Positions 5,516 to 16,320 of a DNA stretch of 64,000 bases are shown here, piece by piece. The stretch is from assembly GCA_902825855.1 (NCBI GenBank), contig CADECW010000011.1, positions 1-64,000 on the forward strand, written 5' to 3'. The notes under the pieces are model-generated. The model was not told the origin of the DNA. It searched no databases and worked only from the letters and a program-made list of their open reading frames with translations. The position numbers and the translations under genes were made by a program. The DNA is from an uncultured Rhodospirillales bacterium. GTDB lineage: Bacteria > Pseudomonadota > Alphaproteobacteria > Reyranellales > Reyranellaceae. Position 1 is the first letter of the stretch, and each line of letters begins with the position of its first letter.

Positions 5516-5529
5516 TTGACCTAGGTCAA
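5516..5529. promoter_or_regulatory. FixK/FNR box between usp and the TauE-like gene
   Basis: TTGACCTAGGTCAA is a perfect 14-bp palindrome matching TTGAY-N4-RTCAA. It lies between divergent genes. Class II spacing predicts +1 near 5481 for usp and 5564 for the plus-strand gene, with TAGGTA at -12 to -7 in the latter direction. Confidence 0.85.
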
Positions 5530-7162: not shown

Positions 7163-7176
7163 TTGACCCAGATCAA
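7163..7176. promoter_or_regulatory. FixK/FNR box of the ccoN promoter
   Basis: TTGACCCAGATCAA matches TTGAY-N4-RTCAA exactly in both half-sites. With its centre at -41.5, ccoN transcription would start near 7211, leaving a 22-nt leader, with TAGACC at -12 to -7. In the other direction the start for the DUF2189 gene would be near 7128. Confidence 0.9.
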
Positions 7177-9439: not shown

Positions 9440-9592
9440 ATGACCTTGCAAACCTTCGGCGAGATCCTGGCCTCGGCCTGGACGGTTTGGGCCGTGCTGG
9501 TGTTCGCCGGCATCGTGCGCTGGGCGTGGCGGCCAGCCAATCGCGGCCGCTTCGAGCAGGACGCCGACATCCCGCTCAACGACGAAGGCTGA
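9440..9592 (+). CDS. ccoQ: cbb3 oxidase subunit IV, CcoQ
   Basis: 50-residue protein with one transmembrane helix (about 10-30; SAWTVWAVLVFAGIVRWAW) and a short acidic C-terminus (QDADIPLNDEG), as usual for CcoQ/FixQ. Ribosome site GGGAGGCGAGC. It lies 10 bp after ccoO and 5 bp before ccoP. CcoQ stabilises the assembled oxidase. Confidence 0.93.
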   Translation: MTLQTFGEILASAWTVWAVLVFAGIVRWAWRPANRGRFEQDADIPLNDEG

Positions 9593-12399: not shown

Positions 12400-14756
12400 G
12401 CGACATCGCCCTCGCGACGCCCGCCAGGCCGATCGCCGCCCCGACCTGCGCCCATTGCGGAGAAACCGTGCGCGGTGCAGGTGAGTTCTGTTGCGCCGGC
12501 TGCGCCAGCGCCCATGCCATCATCGGCGCGGCCGGGCTCACGGCGTTCTACCGGCGCCTCGAGGACAAGAGGGCGCATCGGCCCGAGCCGCTCGACGCAG
12601 ACTTCGCCAGCTACGCCCGCGCCATCGATGACAGTGAGTGCGAGATCGATCTGCTCGTCGACGGCCTCGATTGCGCAGCCTGCGTCTGGCTGCTGGAGAG
12701 CCTCCTGGCCCGCAATCTGGCGATCCGGCGCGCCCGCGCCCATCTCTCGACGCGGCGGCTGGCACTTCGCTGGGCCGGACCCGCCAGCGACGCCAACGCG
12801 CATGTCGGGCTAGTCGCCGCGCTCGGCTTCCGGCCAGGGCCTTTCCAGGCGTCGGCAGCGAACGGCACCGGCGACCGCGAGATGCGCGACCTGCTGCGTT
12901 GCCTTGGCGTGGCGGGGTTCGCCGCGGCCAACGTCATGCTGCTATCGGTGGCGATCTGGTCAGGTCACGACGGATCGATGGGCGACGCCACGCGCACGAT
13001 GTTCCATTGGCTGTCGGCGGCAATCGCTCTGCCCGCCATCGCCTACGCCGGCCGGCCGTTCTTTCGCTCTGCCGTCAATGCGCTCAAGGCCGGACGGACC
13101 AACATGGACGTGCCGATCTCGATCGGCGTCACGCTGGCCTCGGTCGTCAGCCTGCACGAGGCGTGGGTCGGCGAGCAGCACGCCTACTTCGATTCGGCAA
13201 TCACGCTGCTCTTCTTCCTGCTGATCGGCCGCTATCTCGACCGGCGCGCCCGCGGCCGCGCGCGCCAGGCGGTGCAGGCCCTGCTGGCGCTCGGGGCGCG
13301 CAGCGCCACGGTGATCGCGGCCGACGGCCGTACGGCATCGCGGAGAGTCGACCGGCTCGTACCGGGCGATGTGCTCGTGGTCGCGGCCGGCGAGCGGCTG
13401 GCGGCCGACGGCATCGTCGCCGACGGCCGCTCCCTGCTCGACACCGCTCTGGTGAGCGGCGAAAGCGTGCCGCATCCCGCCGGGCCGGGCACGCAGGTGT
13501 TCGCCGGCATGGTCAATCTCGGCACGCCGCTCCGGGTTCGCGTCACCGCTGCCGGCGAACGCACGCTCCTGTCCGAGATCGTCCGCCTGGTCGAAGCCGC
13601 CGAGCGCGGCCGCTCGCGCTTCGTCGCCATCGCCGACCGGCTGGCGCGCGCTTACGCACCGGTCGTCCATCTGACCGCGCTGTTGACCTTCCTCGGTTGG
13701 ATGCTGCTGGGCGGTCTCGCCTGGGACCGCGCGCTGCTGGTAGCCACAGCCGTGCTGATCATCACCTGCCCCTGCGCATTGGCCCTCGCCGTGCCGGTAG
13801 TGCAGGTCGTTGCCAGCACCCGCCTGCTCGGCGACGGCGTGCTGCTGCTGTCGCCGACCGCACTGGAGCGCGTGGCCGGCGCCGATCACGTAATCCTCGA
13901 CAAGACCGGTACCTTGACGCTCGGCCGCCCCGAACTCGTCGGCGCGGGCCACGATCCGGCAATGCTGCGGCAGGCCGCGGCGATTGCCGCCAACTCGCGC
14001 CATCCGCTAGCCCGGTCGCTTGTCCGCGCGGCTACGGATTCGGTAGCCGCGCACGGCGTGGTCGAACATGCCGGCCTCGGCCTGCAGTGCGGCGAGAGCA
14101 GGTTGGGCTCGGCCCGGTTCTGCGGCGTAGTAGATCCGCCGGATGACGGGCACTCGGAGCTGTGGTTCATGCGGCCCGGCGCAACGCCAGTGCGACTGGC
14201 CTTTGCCGATCACCTGCGGCCGGACGCGACCGACACCGTCGCGCGCCTGAGCAAGCGCGGCTTCACGGTCGAGCTGCTGTCCGGCGACCGCCCGGCGGCG
14301 GTGGCACAGGTCGCCCACGAGGTCGGCATTGCGGCATGGCGCGCCGAAGTTTCGCCGGCTGCCAAGGCGGCTCGGCTGGCGGCGCTGGCGGCCGAAGGCC
14401 GACGCGCCCTGATGATCGGCGATGGCCTGAACGACGCACCGGCTTTGGCGACAGCCCATGCCTCGATCTCGCCGTCCACTGCGGCGGAAGCGACGCAGAA
14501 CGCTGCCGACGCGGTGTTTCAGGGCGATGCGCTCGGTGGAGTCGTCGAGATCGTCGACGTCTCGCGGCGGGCCGGCCGGCTGATGCGTCAGAACCTTGCG
14601 CTCGCCTTGCTCTACAACCTCAGCGCCGTGCCGCTCGCCATCCTGGGCGAGGTGACGCCGCTGGTCGCAGCGATCGCCATGTCGTCGTCCTCGCTGCTGG
14701 TGATCGGCAACGCGCTACGCCTGGCACGACGCTCGCGGAGCACGGCCCATGGATAG
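12396..14756 (+). CDS. ccoI: CcoI/FixI copper-exporting P1B-type ATPase
   Basis: 786-residue heavy-metal P-type ATPase that moves copper toward the periplasm for the oxidase. The N-terminus has a cysteine-rich metal site (CAHCGETVRGAGEFCCAGC) and a heavy-metal-associated domain with DCAAC. Membrane metal motif CPC is at residue 458, phosphorylation D502 in DKTGTLT, and the hinge GDGLNDAP has D676. The cysteine-rich front domain is typical of FixI rather than CopA. It overlaps ccoH by 4 bp and ccoS by 8 bp. Confidence 0.96.
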   Translation: MSDIALATPARPIAAPTCAHCGETVRGAGEFCCAGCASAHAIIGAAGLTAFYRRLEDKRAHRPEPLDADFASYARAIDDSECEIDLLVDGLDCAACVWLLESLLARNLAIRRARAHLSTRRLALRWAGPASDANAHVGLVAALGFRPGPFQASAANGTGDREMRDLLRCLGVAGFAAANVMLLSVAIWSGHDGSMGDATRTMFHWLSAAIALPAIAYAGRPFFRSAVNALKAGRTNMDVPISIGVTLASVVSLHEAWVGEQHAYFDSAITLLFFLLIGRYLDRRARGRARQAVQALLALGARSATVIAADGRTASRRVDRLVPGDVLVVAAGERLAADGIVADGRSLLDTALVSGESVPHPAGPGTQVFAGMVNLGTPLRVRVTAAGERTLLSEIVRLVEAAERGRSRFVAIADRLARAYAPVVHLTALLTFLGWMLLGGLAWDRALLVATAVLIITCPCALALAVPVVQVVASTRLLGDGVLLLSPTALERVAGADHVILDKTGTLTLGRPELVGAGHDPAMLRQAAAIAANSRHPLARSLVRAATDSVAAHGVVEHAGLGLQCGESRLGSARFCGVVDPPDDGHSELWFMRPGATPVRLAFADHLRPDATDTVARLSKRGFTVELLSGDRPAAVAQVAHEVGIAAWRAEVSPAAKAARLAALAAEGRRALMIGDGLNDAPALATAHASISPSTAAEATQNAADAVFQGDALGGVVEIVDVSRRAGRLMRQNLALALLYNLSAVPLAILGEVTPLVAAIAMSSSSLLVIGNALRLARRSRSTAHG

Positions 14757-14889
14757 CCTGCTTGTCCTGGTTCCGGCAGCCCTGCTGCTCGGCCTCTCGG
14801 CGCTGGCGGCATTCCTATGGGCGCTGCGCAGCGGCCAATACGACGACCCCGACGGGTCGGCGGGCCGAATCCTGTTCGACGATGAGTAA
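14749..14889 (+). CDS. ccoS: CcoS cbb3 maturation protein
   Basis: 46-residue membrane protein: one helix (about 3-26) then the CcoS signature SGQYDDPDGSAGRILFDDE. CcoS is required for cofactor insertion into the oxidase. The ATG lies inside the ccoI 3' end (8-bp overlap). Confidence 0.93.
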   Translation: MDSLLVLVPAALLLGLSALAAFLWALRSGQYDDPDGSAGRILFDDE

Positions 14890-14899
14890 GGAGGACACG

Positions 14900-15085
14900 A
14901 TGTCTCATTGGATCATGGGTATCTTCACCGGGCTGCTCGGAATGGCCGGTCTCATGATGGCGGGCGCCGCACGTGATTTCGGCATCCTCGCCTTCGGTCT
15001 GGCGCTGGCGCTCTATGCCGTCCTGTTCTGCTGGTGGATGATCAAGACCGCTTACGACGAGATCGAGCAGGAGCGACGGCCATGA
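14900..15085 (+). CDS. small two-helix membrane protein in the cco operon
   Basis: 61-residue protein with two hydrophobic segments (about 4-25 and 29-51; FGILAFGLALALYAVLF) and a charged C-terminus. An excellent ribosome site (TAAGGAGGACACG, overlapping the ccoS stop) fixes the ATG at 14900. It starts 10 bp after ccoS and overlaps the next gene by 4 bp as ATGA, so it belongs to the oxidase operon. No named family recognised; an assembly or accessory-subunit role is inferred from position only. Confidence 0.7.
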   Translation: MSHWIMGIFTGLLGMAGLMMAGAARDFGILAFGLALALYAVLFCWWMIKTAYDEIEQERRP

Positions 15086-15459
15086 GCCTGAAGCGCGTCC
15101 GCCTGGAACTGGCCCGCACGCCCGATCATCCCACCGGCAGCTCCTCGCACGGTTACGAGTTCATGGCGCCGCTCGACGAAAGAGGTCACCTCGCGTCGTC
15201 GGAATGGCAGAGGCAGAAGGGAGCGTGCACGGTGCGTCGGTTCTGGGCCGGCGCGGACGACGAGCACGGCGCGCTGATCCATCGACGCGACGGAAGCTGG
15301 GCGTTTTCCTATGCACCCGGCGAGAATGACGACGAGCCGATTTTCAAGTTCGATCGGCACCGCTTCGTGGTCGGTGAATACGTGACCATCACCGAGCACG
15401 ACAGCGTCCCGCGGCCCTTCCGCGTTGCCGAGGTCGCTCCCGCGATCAGACGTGCCTAG
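15082..15459 (+). CDS. conserved hypothetical protein, last gene of the cco operon
   Basis: 125-residue soluble protein without signal peptide or membrane segment. Visible features are an N-terminal RVRLELARTPDHPTGSSSHG, a central CTVRRFWAG, and a C-terminal beta-rich end (RHRFVVGEYVTITEHD). The ATG overlaps the preceding stop by 4 bp. I recall similar proteins beside fixNOQP in alphaproteobacteria but no function. Its 3' end overlaps that of a convergent microprotein gene by 14 bp. Confidence 0.7.
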   Translation: MSLKRVRLELARTPDHPTGSSSHGYEFMAPLDERGHLASSEWQRQKGACTVRRFWAGADDEHGALIHRRDGSWAFSYAPGENDDEPIFKFDRHRFVVGEYVTITEHDSVPRPFRVAEVAPAIRRA

Positions 15460-15574
15460 GAGGCTGAGTCGCCAACCAGCGGCGATAGCGGATGTAGGCG
15501 ATGCCGATCGACACGCCGAAGCCGACAAAGGAGAAGATCACGAGAAGCAGGTAGTAGAACTGGTCGGTCGTCAT
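15446..15574 (-). CDS. 42-residue membrane microprotein, FixK-linked
   Basis: Encodes 42 residues: a short polar start (MTTDQF), one strong transmembrane helix (about 6-28), then a basic tail (YIRYRRWLATQPPRHV), so the C-terminus is probably cytoplasmic. A consensus GGAGGTG ribosome site sits 5 nt before the ATG. The FixK box at 15626-15639 lies at -41.5 from a predicted start at about 15591, with GATCAT at -12 to -7 and a 17-nt leader. Size and topology recall single-helix subunits of cbb3 oxidases such as Pseudomonas CcoM, but I see no sequence proof of relationship. Confidence 0.6.
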   Translation of the reverse strand: MTTDQFYYLLLVIFSFVGFGVSIGIAYIRYRRWLATQPPRHV

Positions 15575-15625
15575 CGGCACCTCCGCTGGTCGCGGCGATG
15601 ATCGCCAAACAGCCGACCTTCGCGT

Positions 15626-15681: not shown

Positions 15682-15939
15682 ATGGACGCCAGCTACTACT
15701 CGATCATCGAACGCGGCGAGGATGGCCATTTCTGGGGGTGGGTGCCTGACCTGCCCGGCATCAGCGCCGACGGCCTGACCGAGAAGGAAGTGGCCGGTCG
15801 CCTGCTGCGAAGGGTGCGCGAATGCCTGCGCGATCTCATCGTCACCGGCGAGGCGATACCACGGCCGCGTCGTCCGGAGGAGCTGCCTGCCCGCGACAGT
15901 GGGCGCGAGCTGCGGCGCCTGCTGCTGATCATCAGCTGA
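15682..15939 (+). CDS. HicB-like antitoxin-fold protein without HicA
   Basis: 85-residue protein with the HicB partial RNase-H-like fold: YYSIIERGEDGHFWGWVPDLPGI, then an amphipathic helix (RLLRRVRECLRDLI). No C-terminal DNA-binding domain and no adjacent hicA are visible, so it is an orphan. The ATG at 15682 is chosen because it starts the fold, follows GAGGGCACG, and lies just after the predicted FixK-dependent start at 15674; the longer upstream reading would begin before the transcript. Confidence 0.7.
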   Translation: MDASYYSIIERGEDGHFWGWVPDLPGISADGLTEKEVAGRLLRRVRECLRDLIVTGEAIPRPRRPEELPARDSGRELRRLLLIIS

Positions 15940-15966: not shown

Positions 15967-16320
15967 ATGCCTCTCAGTCGGGCGATTGTCTGGATGGATT
16001 CACACCAGGCCAGCGTCTTCAGGTTCGGCGCGAACGAGGTCGCGCACGGTCGTCTTCGCGCCGACAGCCCGTTCCTCAAGGTCGACCACAAGGCCGGCCG
16101 CATGCACGGCGGGCGGCCCGCCGCCGATCACGACTTTCTCGACCGGGTCATCGATGCCCTGCGCGGCACGCGTGCCTCGTGCCTCGCCGGTCCCGACGGC
16201 GCCAAGGACGAGCTGGTCGACTATCTCGACAGGTACAAGGACCGCGACGGGCATATCGCAAGCCTTCGACAGCAGCTCCTCTGCATTTCGTCAATGGAGC
16301 GCCGACCGGTGGCGGGCTGA
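15967..16320 (+). CDS. conserved protein annotated elsewhere as translational machinery protein
   Basis: 117-residue soluble protein. The start (AIVWMDSHQASVFRFGANEV) and the segment KVDHKAGRMHGGRPAADHDFLDRV match, from memory, small alphaproteobacterial proteins labelled translational machinery protein, with an eRF1-like alpha/beta fold. The C-terminus after GHIA looks unlike that family, and another frame stays open there to 16358, so a truncation or frameshift is possible. 27 bp after the HicB-like gene, on the same strand. Confidence 0.6.
   Translation: MPLSRAIVWMDSHQASVFRFGANEVAHGRLRADSPFLKVDHKAGRMHGGRPAADHDFLDRVIDALRGTRASCLAGPDGAKDELVDYLDRYKDRDGHIASLRQQLLCISSMERRPVAG

Follow-up and report, generated by a model that had tools for sequence, protein, structure and literature searches.

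Known single-helix microproteins and the Reyranella locus

Single-helix microproteins that serve as accessory subunits or in stress responses are already known as a kind, with CcoM, CydX and YohP as examples. CcoM of the Pseudomonas stutzeri cbb3 oxidase is 36 amino acids long (PMC10433244), and YohP of Escherichia coli is a stress-induced protein of 27 amino acids tied to starvation and stationary phase (PMC12719787). FixQ/CcoQ and FixS/CcoS are small proteins with a single transmembrane helix, and CydX and CydH (YnhF) are single-helix accessory subunits of cytochrome bd with 30-40 residues. The haem exporter subunit CcmD is of similar size to the microprotein described here and has an N-out/C-in orientation with a basic tail, like the topology predicted below.

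The window, which is the whole stretch of 64,000 nucleotides that was analysed, is part of contig C11 in a Reyranella genome of 7.79 Mb (G000; G-codes denote sampled genomes and L-codes fetched loci). Its minus strand carries an open reading frame consisting of ATG, 41 further codons and a stop, which translates to MTTDQFYYLLLVIFSFVGFGVSIGIAYIRYRRWLATQPPRHV and whose product is identical to the Reyranella soli copy (Table 1). The preliminary description had claimed 42 codons with a consensus GGAGGTG ribosome site, lying opposite the end of the cco operon. The reading frame and the ribosome site are both present, GGAG precedes the start codon in most homologues, and the gene is arranged tail-to-tail with the plus-strand genes that come after fixS, sharing the last 14 nt of the gene at 15082-15459. 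Its wider surroundings, recognised by eye, comprise the cco operon, a universal stress protein, a HemN-like gene, a CBS gene and a FixL/FixJ-like pair.

Table 1. Coordinates of the microprotein locus and of two oxidase-related genes in the window
Feature	Position	Strand	Remark
Microprotein gene	15446..15574	-	42 aa, single TM helix, predicted N-out/C-in
Shine-Dalgarno GGAGGTG	15578..15584	-	three bases 5' of microprotein ATG
Predicted -10 element GATCAT	15598..15603	-	last-position T kept in 83% of 29 promoters
FNR/FixK box TTGATCTGGATCAA	15626..15639	-	perfect palindrome, 51 nt upstream of microprotein start
FixQ/CcoQ gene (PF05545)	9440-9592		
FixS/CcoS gene (PF03597)	14749-14889		

Three further plus-strand genes lie near the microprotein. 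The gene at 14900-15085, between fixS and the 15082 gene, encodes a 61-aa, probably two-helix protein with no above-cut-off family match. The 15082-15459 gene encodes a 125-aa protein starting MSLKRVRLELARTPDHP that has no Pfam or NCBIfam match, and the homologous gene of a Reyranella massiliensis MAG (L079) is itself preceded, at 45-60 nt, by an FNR/FixK box. The protein encoded at 15967-16320 (starting MPLSRAIVWMDSHQASVFRF) likewise lacks a Pfam or NCBIfam family match; its homologues are FNR/FixK-boxed and, in the MTDIPIY group (a diverged subgroup of the family), share an operon with the microprotein.

The microprotein had been called unannotatable in size, and it gave no meaningful match in Pfam, NCBIfam or the PDB (sequence searches), nor did we find a description of its family in the open-access literature. 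Membership in the FixQ, FixS, CydX and CcmD families was rejected, as no model matched above its cut-off. The only PDB matches, to the transmembrane helix of the potassium-channel subunit KCNE1 (profile A1, E 0.05), were taken as chance. The microprotein resembles CcoM in its single short helix, in its low-oxygen biology and in being easily missed by annotation, but the PDB profile search gave no sequence match between them, and members of the family also occur outside cbb3 carriers. FixQ and FixS are encoded in the same operon region, whereas the microprotein is transcribed separately from the opposite strand. Unlike YohP, it carries an FNR/FixK box rather than a link to starvation and stationary phase; the two would share the character of tiny stress-induced membrane proteins, and no sequence relation is claimed. 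As for CcmD, one family member matches PF04995 weakly (E 0.02-0.04), but the genome of the window has a separate, above-cut-off CcmD (G000:C18:50176-50286), and its PF04995 matches do not include the microprotein.

Conservation and predicted fold of the microprotein

A single-sequence search recovered homologues in 28 of 61 sampled Reyranella genomes, and a profile search raised this number to 37 of 61 (E<=4.5e-6), including the MTDIPIY subgroup. Pooled substitutions gave pS 0.39 against pN 0.17 (Fisher p=1e-10), and the copy from R. soli, the single one found in that species, differs at seven synonymous and no nonsynonymous positions. The preliminary description had allowed that the reading frame might prove absent from relatives, or might change at equal synonymous and nonsynonymous rates; neither was observed. 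This pattern indicates that the microprotein is a real gene maintained by purifying selection across Reyranella and more distant relatives. The FNR/FixK box is the best-conserved feature of the locus, better kept than any other, as would be expected if the conserved element were a promoter or an RNA and the reading frame did not code for protein. However, this non-coding reading is refuted by the substitution pattern, with synonymous changes far above nonsynonymous ones, and we give it practically no weight.

Most of the Reyranella copies sit between dnaE2 and a serine-hydrolase/helicase pair. The genome of the window has a second copy on a 3.75-kb contig (G000:C271:341-532, L102), which is 74% identical and shows the same box and spacing. 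This copy may represent a paralogue or a contaminant; with 6.94% contamination listed for the assembly, a foreign origin is conceivable.

The single strong helix and basic tail ascribed to the product were borne out by prediction. Hydropathy analysis revealed one transmembrane segment (KD 2.33) with a charge of -1 on its N side and +4 on its C side, and AlphaFold2 modelled one helix spanning residues 3-36 (mean pLDDT 91.6), so that an N-out/C-in topology is predicted. Conservation along residues 5-34 in Reyranella is periodic, with its maximum at 100 degrees per residue (p=0.008); within residues 5-24 helical periodicity was found in the class-wide set (p=0.00025), on the same face as in Reyranella, and in Reyranella alone (p=0.04), all of these p values being calculated with phylogeny ignored. 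The conserved face includes E/Q5, Y8/L9, V12, F16, F19, L23, Y30 and L34, and Y7, F16 and Y30 are invariant in profile A1. Conservation along one face of the helix favours a specific helix-helix contact and suggests a fixed membrane partner, although the face could equally serve self-association.

Promoter box and distribution in the Alphaproteobacteria

The preliminary description had placed a FixK box so as to give a 17-nt leader, and the geometry agrees: from a box centre at 15632.5, a class-II start of transcription (41.5 nt from the centre) is predicted at about 15591, 17 nt before the start codon. When 29 promoters were aligned on the box, the T located 28 bases downstream, which was kept in 83% of them, matched position -7 in class-II promoters. 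The palindrome could also act on the plus strand, where the nearest gene begins at 15682 (UPF0150-like, a sub-cut-off Pfam match). Since the leader to that gene would be only about 8 nt, the microprotein is the more likely target of the box. FNR, FixK and DNR boxes are indistinguishable by sequence. The cco promoter has a box of the same kind at 7163, and a further perfect FNR/FixK box (TTGACCTAGGTCAA, 5516-5529) separates a universal stress protein-like gene from a divergent gene for a membrane protein.

A perfect TTGAN6TCAA was present 47-55 nt upstream of the start in all 29 copies from the single-sequence search, which had been picked on protein similarity alone. Among the Reyranella copies found later, three have a perfect box (G036, G066, G069) and one has a single mismatch (G068). 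For comparison, a box at 45-60 nt precedes 57 of 4,170 ATG open reading frames (1.4%) in the fetched loci; 26 of these 57 belong to the microprotein family, and many of the others look like real low-oxygen, stress or redox genes (Usp, CBS). A stricter pattern combining the box with the start motif matched in 2 of 386 genomes and was too narrow.

The profile search also revealed short relatives of 30-62 residues in Hyphomicrobium and in genomes from at least seven further families of the alphaproteobacterial sample, and these counts are lower bounds, as the class searches scored no more than 18 or 42 candidates in each genome. Outside Reyranella the gene is an orphan among unrelated neighbours. 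A perfect box precedes 15 of these relatives at about 52-61 nt, namely those in Hyphomicrobium and in G070, G156, G215, G201, G082, G128, G158, G101, G216, G485, G469, G460, G478 and G475. The box of the G185 copy is degenerate, and none was found for the possible members in G064 and G463 or for the second G488 copy. Distant members score weakly before their addition to the profile (E 1e-3 to 1e-6 per genome), and short transmembrane helices may resemble one another by chance. Matches in G395 and, in G106 and G160, within an antiporter-like gene lacked boxes and were rejected as chance, and a plasmid tblastn match in Microvirga was rejected as an unboxed, different protein. That the marginal class-wide matches are boxed and the false antiporter-gene matches are not lends support to a low-oxygen-induced membrane microprotein as the best explanation of the family.

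Diverged copies without a box of their own are second genes of operons whose first gene is boxed. An AIVWMDS-type gene precedes the microprotein in five of five cases checked (L103, L105, L106, L108 and L109; operon box at 53-55 nt), and a DoxX-like gene precedes it in two (L159 and L160; 56-58 nt). Thus, whether before the gene itself or before its operon, the box stands at class-II distance, the arrangement of an FNR/FixK-controlled small membrane protein.

Candidate partners and proposed function

We somewhat favour the view that the product is an accessory membrane microprotein, induced at low oxygen, whose partner is not cbb3 alone. As oxygen falls, an FNR/FixK-type activator would bind the box and recruit polymerase at the class-II promoter. 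The 42-residue product would then insert as one helix, with the N-terminus outside and the basic YRRW tail in the cytoplasm, and its conserved face would pack on a membrane partner, tuning the assembly or activity of that partner under low oxygen. The likelier candidate is some respiratory or redox membrane complex common to all carriers, and the partner may differ between lineages. More tentatively, and with somewhat less than even confidence, the family as a whole could be an FNR/FixK-dependent, class-wide alphaproteobacterial set of general adaptors that would serve, at low oxygen, some respiratory or redox complex distinct from both cbb3 and bd.

The preliminary description had proposed an unnamed oxidase subunit or assembly factor. 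In the window the gene adjoins the cco operon and shares its box type; in several Reyranella genomes 6-11 kb separate it from fixO. Co-occurrence within the genus also agrees with a dedicated subunit or assembly factor like CcoM or CcoQ: among near-complete Reyranella genomes (>=90%), the microprotein is present in 27 of 36 with FixO and in none of nine without it (Fisher p=5.5e-5, relatedness ignored). However, nine of those 36 FixO carriers lack it, most Reyranella copies lie at dnaE2, unlinked to cco, and those of other families are scattered. Near-complete genomes from other families (G101, G128 and G185) have the gene and no FixO, which means that the family as a whole cannot have cbb3 as its obligate partner; G101 and its FixO-carrying congener G216 share the same orthologue, box and neighbourhood. 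In the class sample FixO was found in 8 of 11 carriers among the matches listed, against 78 of 172 genomes overall (p=0.07). Restriction to genomes with cbb3 core subunits fits Reyranella alone and does not extend to the class. Pfam and PDB sequence searches found no relation to FixQ or CcoM: none of 25 members matched the FixQ or FixS models at E<=1, and the PDB profile search gave no oxidase chain. We therefore regard a dedicated cbb3 role as unlikely, and cbb3 may be one partner of the microprotein.

A CydX-type subunit of cytochrome bd would have a similar size and topology, and CydA is present in G000 and G015. Yet G082, G101, G201 and G216 carry the microprotein gene without CydA, the CydA matches of G185 are weak and divergent, CydA showed no association with the microprotein in the class sample, and no CydX-type Pfam model was among the matches of 25 members at E<=1. 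Such a role is thus very improbable. Rather less doubtful, though still a little less probable than a dedicated cbb3 role, is that the product, singly or as a homo-oligomer, acts on the membrane and lowers its potential or alters lipids. YohP provides the precedent (PMC12719787) for a tiny single-helix protein lacking catalytic residues under a stress-type promoter, and universal-stress and CBS genes adjoin the microprotein in some genomes. Against this, the strict conservation of aromatic residues on one side (Y7, F16 and Y30) and the periodicity point to a specific interface, although self-association would also be one.

If the accessory low-oxygen reading holds, the low-oxygen regulon of the Alphaproteobacteria includes a widely kept member that has been overlooked on account of its size (30-62 residues) and its position among unrelated genes. 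Regulon reconstructions from annotated genes (e.g. PMC2908626) would include such genes only where they are annotated, and the family can be recognised by its promoter. The conserved helix face makes the question of the partner directly testable. In the family of G128 (genus g270), the boxed operon of a DoxX-like gene and a microprotein relative (L159 and L160) lies amid genes for a CRP/FNR-like regulator, a response regulator and universal stress proteins.
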